Source of the DNA: Candidatus Saccharimonadota bacterium
GTDB lineage: Bacteria; Patescibacteriota; Saccharimonadia; Saccharimonadales; Saccharimonadaceae
Direction: 5' to 3'
DNA: 64,000 nucleotides
Assembly (NCBI GenBank): GCA_009783305.1
Contig: WRHJ01000001.1
Coordinates: 124,001 to 188,000 of the forward strand
The translations under genes and the position numbers were made by a program. Below are positions 28,158 through 53,135 of the stretch, one piece after another. Numbering within the stretch: the stretch's first letter is position 1; each line of letters starts with the position of its first letter. Under the pieces are notes generated by a model. That model worked only from the letters and a program-made list of their open reading frames with translations, was not told the origin of the DNA and did no database searches.

Positions 28158-30224
28158 TTAATTCAATGTTGTGAGTCGCTGATATTTCTGAACGCTGGCG
28201 GCTAACTCTTTATATTTTAGCATATTTGGTTTGGTTTTAGCAAACCGATTGACGGCCTGGCGGGCAGCGGCGATGAGTTTGGTATCAGTGATAGAAGCAA
28301 TGCGCAGGTCGAGGGCGCCATGTTGGAGCGAGCCATAGATTTCGCCGGGACCACGCAGTTTAAGGTCGACTTCGGCGAGATGGAAACCATCTTGGGAACG
28401 TTCGATTTCCTTGAGCCGGCGGGTGGGAGCGCTTGAGCTGGAATTGATAAGGTAACAGTATGATTCAGCGGTGCCGCGCCCGACTCTTCCTCGCAACTGA
28501 TGAAGTTGTGAAAGTCCGTAACGATCGGCGTCAGCTATGACCATGACGGTAGCGTTGGGGACGTTGACGCCGACTTCGATGACAGTGGTGGAGACGAGGA
28601 TATTGATTTTATTGGCGGTGAATTTGGCTATGATGTTGTCTTTTTCGGCGGATTTCATTTTGCCGTGGAGATATTCAACTTTGTAGTTGGGGAATTTTTT
28701 GGCGATGCTGGCGGCTTCTTTTTTGACGGACGATAACTCGGTACCGTCTTCGATCATCTTGCAGACATAATAGACCTGGCGTTTTTGTTTCAGCTCATTT
28801 TCGATCGCTTGCCACATTTGGTCGATAGAGTTGGGCGAGATGATTTTGGTGGTGATGGGTTGGCGACCCTTTGGCAATTCATCGATGATAGAAATGTCAA
28901 GATCGCCAAAGACGGTGAGCTGAAGACTCCGAGGTATAGGAGTAGCTGTCATAGACAGAAGATGAGGAATGGTGCCAAAAGAGGATTCTTCACAATAAGT
29001 ACATCGTGAAGAATCTCTTTTGGCACTTTCCTCAGTATCTGTCTTTGCTAGCAATGCCTGACGTTGTTTGACGCCGAAACGGTGCTGTTCGTCGATGATC
29101 GCCAGGCCCAATTTATGAAATATTGTGTCGTCAGTCAGCAAGGCGTGGGTGCCGATGACGAGATCAACTTGGCCGTCACGGATTTGTTTTTTGAGCGTGG
29201 ACTTGTTTTTGGTGGAGCCGGTAAGGAGAGCGATGTGCAGACCGCTGCTTCTTAGAAAACTATGAATAGTTTCGGCGTGCTGGGCGGCGAGAATTTCGGT
29301 GGGAGCCATCAAAGCAGTTTGGTAGCCAGATTTGGCAGCAATGAAGGCAGACAAAGTGGCGACAAGGGTTTTGCCACTGCCGACATCGCCTTGGAGGAGA
29401 CGGTTCATGGGTATAGGACTGTCGAGATTTTGGATAATTTCCCAGGTGGAACGGCGCTGGGCATTGGTAAGTTTGAAAGGAAGTTTGGCAATGATTTTTT
29501 TCAACTGGTCGAGCTGGTATTTGATGACGGGGCTGCGAAGTTTCTGGTTTTCTTCACGATTGAATTGCCCGGCAAGAAGGAGCGAGAAAAGTTCTTCAAA
29601 AGCGAGGTATGCCCTGCCCTGGTCGGCGTCGGCGGCAGATTTGGGAAAATGAACTTGAAAAAGTGCCTCAGATCGGAGGGTTTTGATGGTACCGGGCGGT
29701 AGTAAGTCCGGAATTTGGGCAAAAAATGGTTTGATGGTGTTAAAGAATTTGGTGAAGTTGGTGGACTTGAGTTTGCCGCAGGCGGGATAGACGGGCTGAT
29801 ATTTGTCGGCGGCACGGTCATAATCTGAGGCAAGGGTGGCGGATGGATTCATTAGTTGATAGCGGCCGTATGAAAATTCGAAATTGCCAGAGAAATAATA
29901 GGTTTTGTTGGGGTCAAATTGGTTAGTGCGATAGGGTTGATTAAACCAGATGGCGCGCACTGAGCCAGAATCGTCACTAAGTATGGCTTCGGTGATAGAA
30001 AGATTGCGACGTTTGCGATTGGTTTTGATACTGCTGACTTTGGCCTTGACAGTGACTTTACCTGGTCGCAGGTCGCTGATGCGGCCGGCGCCTTCGTAGG
30101 ATTCGTAAGTACGCGGCAAATGATAAAGCAGGTCGCGGACGGTAAAAAAACCGGCCCTGTTGAGCAGTTCGACGGTTTTTGGGCCGATACCTTTAATATT
30201 ACCGAGCGGCGAACTTAACTCCAT
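28158..30224 (-). CDS. recG: ATP-dependent DNA helicase RecG, with in-frame palindromic insertion
   Basis: IKGIGPKTVELLNRAGF, LLQGDVGSGKTLVA, IDEQHRFGVKQRQALL, MTATPIPRSL, QLRGRVGRG. Confidence 0.95.
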   Translation of the reverse strand: MELSSPLGNIKGIGPKTVELLNRAGFFTVRDLLYHLPRTYESYEGAGRISDLRPGKVTVKAKVSSIKTNRKRRNLSITEAILSDDSGSVRAIWFNQPYRTNQFDPNKTYYFSGNFEFSYGRYQLMNPSATLASDYDRAADKYQPVYPACGKLKSTNFTKFFNTIKPFFAQIPDLLPPGTIKTLRSEALFQVHFPKSAADADQGRAYLAFEELFSLLLAGQFNREENQKLRSPVIKYQLDQLKKIIAKLPFKLTNAQRRSTWEIIQNLDSPIPMNRLLQGDVGSGKTLVATLSAFIAAKSGYQTALMAPTEILAAQHAETIHSFLRSSGLHIALLTGSTKNKSTLKKQIRDGQVDLVIGTHALLTDDTIFHKLGLAIIDEQHRFGVKQRQALLAKTDTEESAKRDSSRCTYCEESSFGTIPHLLSMTATPIPRSLQLTVFGDLDISIIDELPKGRQPITTKIISPNSIDQMWQAIENELKQKRQVYYVCKMIEDGTELSSVKKEAASIAKKFPNYKVEYLHGKMKSAEKDNIIAKFTANKINILVSTTVIEVGVNVPNATVMVIADADRYGLSQLHQLRGRVGRGTAESYCYLINSSSSAPTRRLKEIERSQDGFHLAEVDLKLRGPGEIYGSLQHGALDLRIASITDTKLIAAARQAVNRFAKTKPNMLKYKELAASVQKYQRLTTLN
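28946..29051. repeat. in-frame palindromic element copy 1 (in recG)
   Basis: GTGCCAAAAGAGgATTCTTCAC-AATAAGTACATC-GTGAAGAATCTCTTTTGGCAC with the outer arms extending through TTCCTCA/TGAGGAA and TCTGTCT/AGACAGA. Confidence 0.85.
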
Positions 30225-30241
30225 GCAGTCTATTATACTGC

Positions 30242-30946
30242 CTAGGAGGTCTTGGGGGAATTTTGCTCGCGCCATTTGGCAATGGCACCGTGATTACCGG
30301 AGAGCAGGACGTCGGGGACTTTCATGTCTTTAAAGGTTTCGGGGCGGGTGTATTGGGGATATTCAAGATTATCTCCGTCCGAGAAAGATTCGATTTCGGC
30401 GCTGGTTTCGCCGCCGAGGACGCCGGGGATTAACCGGACTATGCTGTCAATGACGATCATGGCTGGCAGTTCCCCGCCGGTTAAAATATATTTGCCGATA
30501 GAAATCTGATGATCTACCAATGACAAGATCCTTTCGTCATAACCTTCATAGTGCGGACAGATTACGATGTAGGAAATTAGCGAAGAGGATTTTTCACAAT
30601 AAGTACATCGCGAAAAATCCTCTTCCGCTAATTCCTCTGTCGCAAACTTCCTGGCTAGTTCTTGAGACCATATGGTGCCTTTTGGAGTCATAAGGATCAC
30701 TTTGGCGTCTGGATTAGTTTTTTTGGCATGTTCAACGGCGGCGAAGATTGGTTCAGGTTTCATCAGCATGCCGTCGCCGCCACCGTAGGGCGTATCATCG
30801 ACTTGACGGCGGGGGCCAATGCCGAATTCGCGCAAGTTGATCAGTTCAAATTCTACTAGGTTTTTTTCTTGCGCTTTCCAGAGCATAGAAGTGTCAAGAA
30901 CTGGAGCAAACATTTCCGGAAATAGTGTGATAATTGAGAATTTCAT
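30242..30946 (-). CDS. trmD: tRNA (guanine37-N1)-methyltransferase, with in-frame palindromic insertion
   Basis: MKFSIITLFPEMFAPVLDTSMLWKA, PYGGGDGMLMKPEPI, PHYEGYDERIL, YILTGGELPAM. Confidence 0.95.
   Translation of the reverse strand: MKFSIITLFPEMFAPVLDTSMLWKAQEKNLVEFELINLREFGIGPRRQVDDTPYGGGDGMLMKPEPIFAAVEHAKKTNPDAKVILMTPKGTIWSQELARKFATEELAEEDFSRCTYCEKSSSLISYIVICPHYEGYDERILSLVDHQISIGKYILTGGELPAMIVIDSIVRLIPGVLGGETSAEIESFSDGDNLEYPQYTRPETFKDMKVPDVLLSGNHGAIAKWREQNSPKTS
30571..30645. repeat. in-frame palindromic element copy 2 (in trmD)
   Basis: AATTAGCGAAGAGGATTTTTCAC-AATAAGTACATC-GCGAAAAATCCTCTTCCGCTAATT; same 12-nt loop as copy 1. Confidence 0.85.
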
Positions 30947-44554: not shown

Positions 44555-44596
44555 AGCGTGTGCTCCTGCTCGGGATTACGAGTCGCGCTTGACTCG

Positions 44597-44666
44597 GATT
44601 TGGAGCGTATCGGACTTTTACCGTTGCGGCACAGTGCACGATTTTCACGCGCTTCCGCTCCAAATC
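44597..44666. repeat. inverted repeat in the divergent rpoB upstream region
   Basis: GATTTGGAGCG (44597-44607) / CGCTCCAAATC (44656-44666). Confidence 0.7.
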
Positions 44667-44834
44667 ATTTTGATTTAGTTTGAGTATTGCATAATTTTTA
44701 GAAAGCGTGTAGACTTGATTCCAAGAAGTAGTGTGCCGTGCCAAAAAAATCTGATCTGGCGCATCAGATGGGGCAGCCGGCTGTAATCTTCCGGCCAAAG
44801 ATATAAAACACTAATAATACAAGCGAGGAAATTC

Positions 44835-48281: not shown

Positions 48282-51200
48282 ATGGCTTGGCAAGATAATT
48301 TCATTAGTGCGAGCGACTTCGACTCAATTAGGCTGAGCATAGCCAGCGCCGAAGATGTCATGAACTGGAGCTATGGCGAAGTTCTGAAACCTGAAACAAT
48401 CAATTATCGCACCCAAAAACCGGAGCGTGACGGTTTGTTCTGTGAGCGGATTTTTGGACCAGTTAAAGATATTAACCCTAATGACAGCAAATTGAAGGGC
48501 GTACGCTCACGCGAAGCGGCGGTTGATAAGGATGGCAATTTGGTGACCAAGGCAATTTCCCGACGTGAACGCATGGGGCATATTACGCTCGCGGCGCCGG
48601 TAGTGCATATTTGGTTTATGCGCGGTACGCCGTCAGCATTAAGTTTGCTATTAAATTTGACAGTTAAAAATATTGAGAAAGTTGTCTACTTTGCTTCTTA
48701 CATTATTACTGATGTCAAGCAGGAAGAAATTGATGCCCGTTTGATTGACCTAGAAACTGTACATGAAGCAGCGCTGCAAGCAATCAAGTTGCGCTATGAG
48801 CAAGAAAGCAAGCAAGAAGGTGCGGACATAAAAGCTTTGGCTGAAGCACAAACCAAAGAGATTGATGAAGAAAATGAGAATTATCAATCGAGAAAAGCAG
48901 TTTTGACCGGATTTATAAAAGGTGCAATCATCAGCGAGATGGATTATCGTAATTTGGATGATGACTACGTCGACCTAATTACGGTCGGCATGGGCGCAAC
49001 TGCGATTAAGAAGATTTTGGATGAAATTGACCTGAAATCGCTAATTGAAAAATTGCGTGAAGATGTAATTAGTGCCAAAGGGCAAAAAGAAAAGAAACTG
49101 ATCAAGCAATTGAAGGTGTTTGAAGGTATGCAATCGGCTGGGATTAGGCCGTCCGATTTAGTATTGACTGTAGTACCAGTGATCCCGCCAGATCTACGCC
49201 CGATGATTTCATTGGCCGGCGGGCGCTTTGCAACGTCAGATCTAAATGATTTGTACCGTCGCGTGATCAATCGCAATAATCGTTTGAAGAAATTAATCGA
49301 CTTAAATGCGCCAGAAGTAATTTGCCGCAATGAAATGCGTATGCTGCAAGAAGCAGTGGATGCATTGATTGACAATAATGCTTCTCATGGCAGCCGAACG
49401 GCGAATTCGCAAAATGGTCGCCGCAAGTTAAAGAGTCTTTCTGATCTGTTAAAGGGTAAGCAGGGCCGCTTCCGTCAGAATTTGTTAGGTAAGCGCGTAG
49501 ATTACTCTGGGCGTTCAGTGATTGTGGTAGGGCCAGAACTAAGGATTAACGAATGTGGCCTGCCAAAATTAATGGCGCTTGAGTTGTTCAAGCCATTTGT
49601 GATTAGTTGGTTAATTACAAATGAACACGCTGCTAATATCCGCGTGGCAACACGTTTGATTGAGCAGGGAGAAACTGTAGTCTGGGATGCTTTGGATGAA
49701 GTAATTAAAGGTAAATATGTACTTTTGAATCGTGCTCCTTCCCTGCACCGTTTGTCAGTGCAAGCTTTCCAGCCGAAATTGATTGACGGCAAAGCGATTC
49801 AGCTGCATCCATTGGTAGCCAATGGCTTTAACGCCGACTATGATGGCGACCAAATGGCAGTCCATTTGCCGCTTTCGTCTGAGGCGCAACTTGAAGCCAA
49901 AGAATTAATGGCGGCGGGCAAGAATTTGCTAAAACCAGCTGATGGTTCGCCGGTTTTGTCGATTTCGCAGGATGTGGTCCTCGGTAATTACTATTTGACC
50001 TACGAAAAGCCTTCGGCTCAGGGTGAGCGTAAAGCTTATACCAATGTCTACGAAGCAGAATTGGCTTACGATGTAGGCCTAATTGAATTACAAACGCCAA
50101 TTCGCGTGCACACTAAGGGCGAAAAACGCGATACGACATTGGGGCGTGTGTTCTTTAATGAAGTATTGCCGAGAGAGTACCCTTATGATAATGAAGTGCA
50201 GAATAGCAAGCATTTAAAGAAGGTGATGGCGGATGTGATGCGCGACTTTGGCGCCGAAGTGGCTGTAAATACGGCTGATGCGATCAAGGACTTGGCGTTC
50301 GAATATGAAACCATTGCTAGCGTTAGCACTTCGAAAGATGATTATCCGTATTATCCGGAAATTGATGAGTTCTTGGCTGAGGGCGAAGGCATTTCAGCGC
50401 AAATTTCGCAACAATTTGAAGAAGGCTTGATTACGGAAGATGAACGTTATCGTTTGACGGTCAGTAACTGGCGCAATATCGATAATAAGATTTCAGACTT
50501 GATCAAGGCTAATTTGTCTGGATTGGATACGAATATTTCTATCATGGTTAACTCTGGTGCGCGTGGTTCAGTTTCGAATATCAAACTGGCTTCTGGTGCG
50601 ATTGGCATCATGGTGGATGTCTTTAACCGAGAAATTGAGTTGCCGGTAAAGTCCAGTTACAAGAAAGGTTTGAATACTTTGGAATCCTTTATCGCGACGC
50701 GAGGAGCACGTCAGGGTCAGGTCTCGACAGCTTTGCGTACGGCCGATTCAGGTTATCTAACGCGACGCTTAGTGGACGTATCTCAGGATGTGTTTACGGT
50801 TGCGGAAGAGGCAGCTGATCCGGGCTTTAGGGTATATAAGTCAGAGTCCGAATACACTGGGATTGACTTTGTGAATCGCATTGCTGGTCGTTTTGCGGCT
50901 GAAAATGTTGAGAAGTACGGTTTGAATATCGATGAATTGATCTCCCGTGATGCGGCTGAACAAGTTGCAGCCGACGAGACAATTGATAGCGTGAAAATTC
51001 AAAGTGTATTAACTACTGAGTGTACTAGCGGAATTCCGACAAAGGCTTACGGTATAGATATGGCGACTCGCAAAGTAGTCGCTCTGCATGAGCCAGTTGG
51101 CGTGATTGCGGCGCAGTCAGTGGGTGAGCCGGGTACGCAGTTGACGCTTGACACAAAGCACTCTTCTGGCGTGGCCGGATCTGGTGCGATTTCGCGTGGT

Positions 51201-52124
51201 TTGCCGCGTGTCGAAGAGTTATTAGAGGCCAGGACGCCGAAAGGCCAGGCTTACATTGCGACGATTGCTGGTGTAGTAAATGTTTGGGAAGAAGGCAGAT
51301 TTAGGATAGTACAAATTACACCGGAGGCTGGAAAATCCGAGAAGCTACCATTGGATGGGCGTAAGCCAAAAGCTAAAGATGGCGCTTCAGTGAAGGCTGG
51401 AGATGTAATCGCAAGCAAAAGCAAGGGCGTTGAACCAATTATGGCGCCGTTTGACGGCATTGTCGAGCTGCTCGAGAAAGAGATCATAATTGTGGCTGGA
51501 GCTGGTGGGCCAGTAAGAATAGAAGTGCCGGTTGATTATGCTCTCACTATTAAATCTGGCGATAGCGTTGAAGCGGGCGATAGGTTATCTGAAGGTTCAT
51601 TGAATTTGCAAGATTTGATGAAATATAAGGGAATCGAAGCGACCGAACGTTATATCATGAATGATATCTTGGCGATTTATGCTGCTCAGGGGCAAGAAAT
51701 TGCCGATAAGCATCTCGAGATCATTATTCATCAGATGTTCTCGCGCGTAATTGTTGAAGAGGCTGGAGATAGTCCATTTGTGATGGGCGATATCTTGAGC
51801 AAAGCTTTGGTGGCGGAGACGAATAAGAAATTAGTAGCTGATGGCAAGCAACCGGCAAAATTTGCCCAATTGCTGCTAGGTATTTCGAAGGTTGCAATCT
51901 ACTCTGATTCGTTCTTGTCGGCTGCGTCCTTCCAGGATACGACTCGCGTTCTGATTAACTCGTCGATTTCTGGACGCATTGATCATCTGAAGGGCCTGAA
52001 AGAGAACGTGATTATCGGACGCAAGATCCCGGTAGGAACTGGTATTACGCCGTTGACTCCAGAGATTGAAGAAGGTGAAGAATCTTTTGCGGAACCTTCT
52101 GAAGCCGAAGTAGCTAATCTGTAG
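48282..52124 (+). CDS. rpoC: RNA polymerase beta-prime subunit, lacking canonical zinc ligands
   Basis: [34 protein letters not shown]. Confidence 0.98.
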   Translation: [1280 protein letters not shown]

Positions 52125-52236
52125 AAGAATAAGTAATCCATTTTCTCGGTTCGGTGCTTCGCGCAAAGAAAACCTGCTTTCGGGCAGGGTTTTCTTTGGA
52201 GCGCAAAAATCTCGAAAATGGGATTACTTATCTACT
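52125..52236. repeat. large quasi-palindrome between convergent rpoC and ldh
   Basis: ATAAGTAATCCATTTTC...GAAAATGGGATTACTTAT outer arms; inner CAAAGAAAACCTGC-TTTCGG-GCAGGGTTTTCTTTG. Confidence 0.8.
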
Positions 52237-53135
52237 TCAGAAATGGCTTCCTTTATGACTTCGATGCTATGGTTAAGCTTTTCTTGCTCTTCTGTAGTTA
52301 ATTTGAGGCCGAGTCGACGTTTGACGCCATGGCGACCAAGCACGGCTGGGAAACCATTAAATATGCCGCTGTACTCGTCAAAGTTGCTGACTGGCAGGAC
52401 GCGATTTTCATCATTGAGTATGCAGTTGGTGATAGTAGCGAGACAAGCGCCAATGCCATAGTAGGTGGCGCCTTTCTTTTCGATGATGGCATAGGCCTCT
52501 TTGCGGGCGGAATCTTCAAGACGGGCCAGTTCTTCGGCGTCAAGCAAGTCAGCTATTTTTTGACCGCCAATATCGGCACTACTCCAGAGCGCGAATTCAC
52601 TATCGCCATGCTCACCTACTTGATAGGCATGGACACTTTTGGGGTGCACGCCGAGACGGCCAGCGATGTATTTGCGCAAACGTGCGCTGTCAAGCACGGT
52701 GCCCGAACCAATGACGCGCTCTTGCGGAAGATCAGAATATTGCCAAACTAGGTGAGTCATAACGTCCATCGGGTTACTGACGACAATGAAAATACCGTCA
52801 AATCCAGACGCCATGATCTGACCGATCATATCTTTGAAAATAGAGGCGTTCTTCTTGAGCAAGTCCATGCGACTTTCGCCGGGCTGTTGGGGCACACCCG
52901 CAGTGACGACTATAATGTCACAGTCGCCGGCATCGGCGTAGGTGCCGCTTTTAATTTTAAGATAGCTGGGTGACACAGCTAGGGCATCACGCAGGTCCAT
53001 GGCTTCGCCTTCAGCATCGTCTTGATTAATATCAACTAAAACTAGCTCATTAACTGCAGTGCGCTGGTTGACGAGCGCAAAGCCATAGCTCATGCCAACG
53101 TTTCCGGTCCCCACGATCATTACTTTATTAGACAT
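52224..53135 (-). CDS. ldh: L-lactate dehydrogenase
   Basis: VGTGNVGMSYGFALVNQ, GSGTVLDSARLRKYIA, GEHGDSEFALWS. Confidence 0.93.
   Translation of the reverse strand: MSNKVMIVGTGNVGMSYGFALVNQRTAVNELVLVDINQDDAEGEAMDLRDALAVSPSYLKIKSGTYADAGDCDIIVVTAGVPQQPGESRMDLLKKNASIFKDMIGQIMASGFDGIFIVVSNPMDVMTHLVWQYSDLPQERVIGSGTVLDSARLRKYIAGRLGVHPKSVHAYQVGEHGDSEFALWSSADIGGQKIADLLDAEELARLEDSARKEAYAIIEKKGATYYGIGACLATITNCILNDENRVLPVSNFDEYSGIFNGFPAVLGRHGVKRRLGLKLTTEEQEKLNHSIEVIKEAISEVDK

Follow-up and report, generated by a model that had tools for sequence, protein, structure and literature searches.

Palindromic elements with conserved heads and mirrored, host-derived arms in the genes of a Saccharimonadota bacterium

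The recG locus and its palindromic insertion

The window, a 64,000-nt stretch of the genome of a Candidatus Saccharimonadota bacterium, contains two neighboring genes with palindromic elements, recG (28158..30275, minus strand) and trmD (30242..30946, minus strand). The recG gene was assigned by NCBIfam RecG equivalogs above cut-off and by a search of the genus, and trmD by an NCBIfam TrmD match above cut-off. The listed start of recG overlaps trmD (30224-30275); since relatives align only from residue 17-18, the true start probably lies near 30224.

The palindrome that had originally been predicted within recG was found as quoted, on the minus strand. Folding gave a full paired footprint of 39 pairs (28953..29044, minus strand), in agreement with the earlier estimate of about 40 pairing positions out of 47. 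The predicted RNA hairpin has a folding energy of -62.2 kcal/mol, compared with -24.9 +/- 3.6 kcal/mol for shuffled sequences (z = -10.2), and none of 200 shuffles folded as well. The element, here called type A, carries a 14-nt head core (28993..29006, minus strand; sense CGATGTACTTATTG) that is identical in six genomic copies.

The insertion adds 21 residues (+63 nt) to RecG, and the codons confirmed that it is in frame and free of stops. Protein alignment placed it between LLAK(AH) and (T)MPHLLSMTATP, that is, between helicase motif II (DEQH) and motif III (TAT), so that the extra residues expected just before HLLSMTATPIP proved to be a clean insertion, absent from all 29 congeneric RecG proteins. 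The congeners read LLAKAH-TMPHLLSMTATP, or a near variant, at this site; the extra residues occur in this genome only, and the relatives have neither the residues nor the palindrome. In a RecG fold model of mediocre overall quality (mean pLDDT 65), residues 413-434 scored below 50, and the insert is probably a disordered loop.

The original prediction further held that the 3′ arm is native RecG sequence and the 5′ arm nearly its inverse. This was borne out for the outer arm and not for the inner one. The outer 3′ arm in the sense of the gene (28948..28969, minus strand) encodes I-P-H-L-L-S, conserved in the 29 relatives, and its native part, ATTCCTCATCTTCTGTC, is mirrored in about 14 of 17 bases by the 5′ arm, where the native K-A-H has become K-T-D. 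The inner part of both arms probably belongs to the element rather than to the host, because it is similar to the inner arms of other copies.

Copies of the element and their distribution

The 18-mer core CACAATAAGTACATCGTG matched twice in the window (0.02 expected). The second match lies 1.6 kb from the recG element, in a type A element in trmD (30573..30635, minus strand) that forms an 18-residue in-frame insertion absent in relatives; both inserts encode the peptide SRCTYCE. In the whole 788-kb genome the core occurs in six exact places, and a reversed control pattern in none. Three of the six sites are within genes (recG, trmD, and pheT), one follows rpmE, and two each separate a convergent gene pair. 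After rpmE (L004:1465-1516), a degenerate second core (CAATAAATACATTA) adjoins the intact one in a tandem-like arrangement.

Gapless alignment of the six type A copies showed that 14 head bases are invariant, and no variation was seen in the head's two G.U pairs. The arms are different in each copy and yet pair nearly perfectly: changes on both sides were seen in 20 of 29 pairs, a level reached by none of 500 shuffles, and sliding the partners by one column lowered pairing from 89% to 46-50%.

A palindrome scan of the whole genome revealed more long palindromes built around other repeated heads. Type B (CGACCGTACTTGTTG) is found at the ruvB 3′ end and in one intergenic copy; type C (AGCGTATCCC..GGCGATGGCT) in tatD and uvrC; and type D (GAACGTA..TGGTTC) in topA, after ftsA, and in one further copy. 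A covariance model of types C and D led to type E, with a long head of about 63 nt, GAACGTAGCGACTCCAGAGAAAACCCTGCCTGAAACAGGTTTTCTCTGCGACNAAGCTGGTTC. The topA type D element (NVASAGS) resembles type E (NVATPEKTLPEAGFPGDKAGS) with the tip deleted. A type E covariance model found 16 copies in the genome, in which covariation was observed in 23 of 44 arm pairs, compared with none of 500 shuffles reaching this level. The search of the genome with covariance models that the original prediction had proposed thus led from six exact cores to about 29 members with five head types, A-E. Inner arms like AAAGAGTATTTCT (about 12 bp) are common to A, C, and E copies. Types A-E are treated here as one superfamily, in which A and B are probably joined to C-E, as judged by inner-arm similarity and shared architecture; this dependence counts against the reading favored below.

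None of the elements had a covariance-model match in Rfam; only below-threshold microRNA and similar chance matches were returned. A likeness of the type D head to integron attC sites or to domain V of group II introns was considered and dropped; Rfam returned no match for it.

One of the 16 type E copies, a diverged one, lies in the window (52118..52241, minus strand; model R3 match at 52124-52236, E = 9.3e-9), supported by its fold and by arm alignment. It lies at the shared end of the convergent genes rpoC (48282-52124, plus strand) and ldh (52224-53135, minus strand), with the C-terminal codons and stop of ldh inside one of its arms. Elsewhere in the window, an AdoCbl-II (B12) riboswitch scored above the gathering threshold (44596-44667, minus strand), in what is a very small genome. 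Four of the type E copies, almost the same in sequence and accompanied by a CT microsatellite, are located at contig ends (L084:35, L100:15316, L094:35, and L080:16838), where a longer repeat holding the element probably broke the assembly.

At least ten elements lie in frame within housekeeping genes: recG, trmD, pheT, tatD, uvrC, topA, truB, an ExoI-like exonuclease gene, tsaD, and priA. Those in the ExoI-like gene and tsaD are type E, as is a further copy at the N-terminus of a lysozyme-like protein. Relative to related genes, the net insertions are +54 nt in trmD, +27 in pheT, +51 in topA, about +42 in tatD, and +33 in uvrC, the last with a loss of 21 nt nearby; those in truB and priA were absent in the one or two relatives compared. 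Every in-gene copy keeps the frame without a stop, and the inserts, with peptides such as SRCTYCE, NVATPEKTLPEAGF, and RIPNIGDG, are presumably translated into protein. Many of the host or neighboring genes act in DNA repair or replication (recG, ruvB, uvrC, topA, priA, the ExoI-like gene, tatD, rarA, and mutM).

The exact type A core was searched for in 44 congeners and, more widely, in the GTDB genome collection and in IMG/VR, with only non-palindromic chance matches, and the type A model R1, run over 295 sampled genomes of the order (this one included), detected the element in no other. Core variants in relatives (AATAATTACTTCG and others) were considered as lineage-specific heads and rejected, as no palindrome surrounds them. 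Type E was found elsewhere: of 247 genomes, searched with strict filters that may miss low-copy carriers, G025, the nearest relative by RecG, has two copies, and a genome from a different genus of the family has one. Patterns of the E head gave nothing real in viral contigs, phages, or plasmids.

One G025 copy occupies the same loop and frame of tsaD as the copy in this genome. The loop is short in the other 14 congeners displayed. The head peptides of the two copies are similar (TPKKTLPEAGFPGDQAG and SEKKLPVNSFFPATKS), but their arms are wholly different and near-perfect in both genomes, indicating either an ancestral insertion with rewritten arms or a site that was hit twice. The tsaD gene of this genome also carries another in-frame insertion, about 39 residues long (peptide EACGRDGRRPSISGP; L084:14108-14209), which belongs to a distinct, GC-rich family of repeats about 100 nt in length, also present at L095:17200, L094:2216, L064:6717, L072:9422, and L085:15426. 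This family gave eight matches of 80-89% identity in pieces of G025 and none in pieces of G035. Long palindromes with unrelated loops at L107:2259-2349 (G035) and L118:8941-9015 (G025) are possibly further head types.

Mirrored host arms and the origin of the elements

Inverted copying of flanking gene sequence, suggested from recG alone in the original prediction, seems to be a general property of the elements, and is clearest at uvrC, priA, and the 3′ ends of aspS, pth, ldh, and ruvB. The right flank of the uvrC copy, natively M-V-E-L with little variation among the relatives shown, now reads E-L-L-L, and the DNA for these four residues is an exact inverse complement of the codons for I-I-I-P in the native left flank. 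In priA, protein alignment and DNA showed that the right-hand native V-x-I is mirrored on the left. In copies at gene 3′ ends, the last codons and the stop form one arm, and an inverted copy forms the other; the mirrored ends, stop included, span 25 nt in aspS, 23 in pth, 23 in ruvB, and 18 in ldh, and the same pattern was seen by inspection at the ends of rpsT and of rpsP in G025. The C-termini of relatives align over or beside the mirrored residues in aspS, pth, and ldh, which identifies the coding arm as the native one and the opposite arm as its copy. One native arm opposite its inverted copy, as expected of a quasipalindrome template-switch product, was thus found at uvrC, aspS, pth, ldh, ruvB, and the recG outer arm. 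In pheT, the palindrome of about 67 nt exceeds the net insertion of +27 nt, which implies that native flank was overwritten. The left arms of trmD and tatD (EEDF/KEDF) were also considered as native sequence; this was weakened by the presence of the same AAGAGGATTT inner arm in other copies.

Template switching during replication near hairpins is known to copy sequence in inverted orientation, to perfect imperfect stems, and to produce multi-base compensatory changes (PMC8794818, PMC7202029, PMC8604942). The reading we favor, with a probability of roughly 0.7, is that the elements are small, non-autonomous, translation-compatible hairpins, similar to Rickettsia palindromic elements (RPEs), that expanded in this lineage, and whose outer arms consist of host flank and its inverted copy, most likely made by template switching. 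A copy would consist of a conserved head (short in A-D, about 63 nt in E) with inner arms of about 12 bp, and would spread by some copying process. The dispersed head and inner arms would act as a seed, from which template switching would extend the palindrome into the adjoining gene; switching across the hairpin (quasipalindrome conversion) would make the outer arms, rewrite them, and keep them perfect. Copies in frame and without a stop would survive within genes as tolerated protein loops, and others would persist at gene 3′ ends. The elements would thus be selfish rather than beneficial. In-frame insertion, recurrence, covariation, and host-derived mirrored arms are direct observations, whereas the mobility of the element and template switching as the agent are what we infer from them.

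An invariant head with varying arms needs recent spread, gene conversion, or selection. No match to the Y1 transposase (PF01797) was found in the genome, although control genomes were positive, and no reverse transcriptase was obvious by motif; these two classes therefore provided no mobilizing enzyme. Loss of the hairpin nuclease SbcD was considered and discarded as an explanation: the sbcD family scores below cut-off throughout the 45 genomes of the genus, and its lack therefore does not account for the peculiarity of this one.

All 11 in-gene copies scored for orientation relative to transcription are in the sense direction (2^-11 = 0.0005). Simple template switching does not predict this. 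Open frames in the in-gene type E copies are more numerous in antisense than in sense, and the bias may point to a step linked to RNA or transcription, or to selection acting on the peptide. A variant that we consider less probable makes the insertion itself the copying event: snap-back synthesis would copy the host flank inverted, so that only the head is inherited and each copy makes its own terminal repeats, preferentially in sense.

It is rather unlikely that the elements are conventional palindromic mobile elements, with arms that belong wholly to the element, were inserted complete, and diverged later by compensatory change, the host mirroring being secondary or coincidental. The shared AAAGAGTATTTCT-like inner arms, the strong covariation of the arms, and the precedent of the Rickettsia elements (PMC10969869) are consistent with such an origin, but it does not account for outer arms that hold native gene ends with their stop codons and conserved native residues, for net insertions shorter than the palindromes, or for tsaD copies of two species with unrelated yet perfect arms.

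Less likely still is an RNA element under selection, such as an mRNA terminator, 3′-end stabilizer, or processing site that is recognized by its head and whose covariation reflects structural selection. The precise coincidence of several copies with gene 3′ ends, in some cases where two genes converge, would suit such a role, as would the invariant G.U pairs of the type A head and the transcript-sense orientation of all 11 in-gene copies, although E heads are at least as open in antisense. However, about a dozen copies lie in the middle of coding sequences, where termination or cleavage would leave no intact message; the sites are not common to relatives, except tsaD in G025; and there is no Rfam family.

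Stable hairpins of such length within a coding sequence are reminiscent of known bypass elements, but it is very improbable that ribosome bypass or RNA removal yields proteins without the insert: all in-gene copies keep the frame without a stop, which skipping would not require, and host residues inside the footprint are altered, so that skipping would not restore the native protein. Finally, a fold-back chimera or adapter introduced during library preparation or assembly, as might be suspected from the contig-end type E copies and from a part of the type A head that may resemble a sequencing adapter, is hardly credible given several unrelated heads, short arms that run into intact host genes in frame, and the same architecture in the independent genomes G025 and G397, one of them at the same tsaD site.

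Comparison with known systems

Rickettsia is the main source of the protein-coding palindromic elements known in bacteria; the present elements add a different lineage, with about 29 copies. Their arms, in which host sequence faces its own inverse, record how they were made, and a simple comparison of strains would test whether hairpins are built and maintained by template switching. In nature, such elements would be one source of in-frame insertions in proteins; they also call for caution, as perfect stem covariation need not imply a selected RNA structure. In open-access full text, no paper was found that describes elements of this sort in such an organism, which is weak evidence of novelty.

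RPEs are short palindromic repeats that occur, inserted in frame, in numerous unrelated housekeeping genes and remain part of the protein, with several families per genome (PMC10969869, PMC6649704). As the original prediction anticipated, they are a conceptual precedent: both are palindromic repeats dispersed within one genome and in frame in unrelated genes. At the level of protein domains, no relation in sequence was detected: no RPE-type domain was present among the NCBIfam and Pfam matches of the host proteins. RPE families are defined by conservation along the entire element, arms included, whereas only the head and inner arms are conserved here; RPEs reportedly lose repeat identity and pairing with time (PMC6649704), whereas these elements keep their pairing.

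The coding palindromes of Nematomorpha mitochondria are perfect inverted repeats with both arms translated and kept perfect, and template switching has been proposed for them (PMC6649704). They share maintained perfection in coding genes, but are organellar and were described without a repeated dispersed head or in-frame insertion, whereas the present elements are bacterial and have both. Quasipalindrome template-switch mutation shares inverted copying from nearby, perfected stems, and block compensatory changes (PMC8794818, PMC7202029, PMC8604942); it is normally sporadic at existing imperfect repeats, whereas here it seems to be repeated around a dispersed head. REP sequences and MITEs are likewise short, palindromic, non-autonomous, and multi-copy (PMC3733652, PMC10969869). 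However, REPs are mostly extragenic and tied to Y1 (RAYT) transposases, whereas at least ten copies here lie in coding sequence and Y1 is absent, and MITEs have fixed terminal inverted repeats, whereas the outer arms here differ between copies and are host-derived. By analogy, the elements appear to be of a known kind, of which a conserved head with host-derived mirrored arms would be a new variation.
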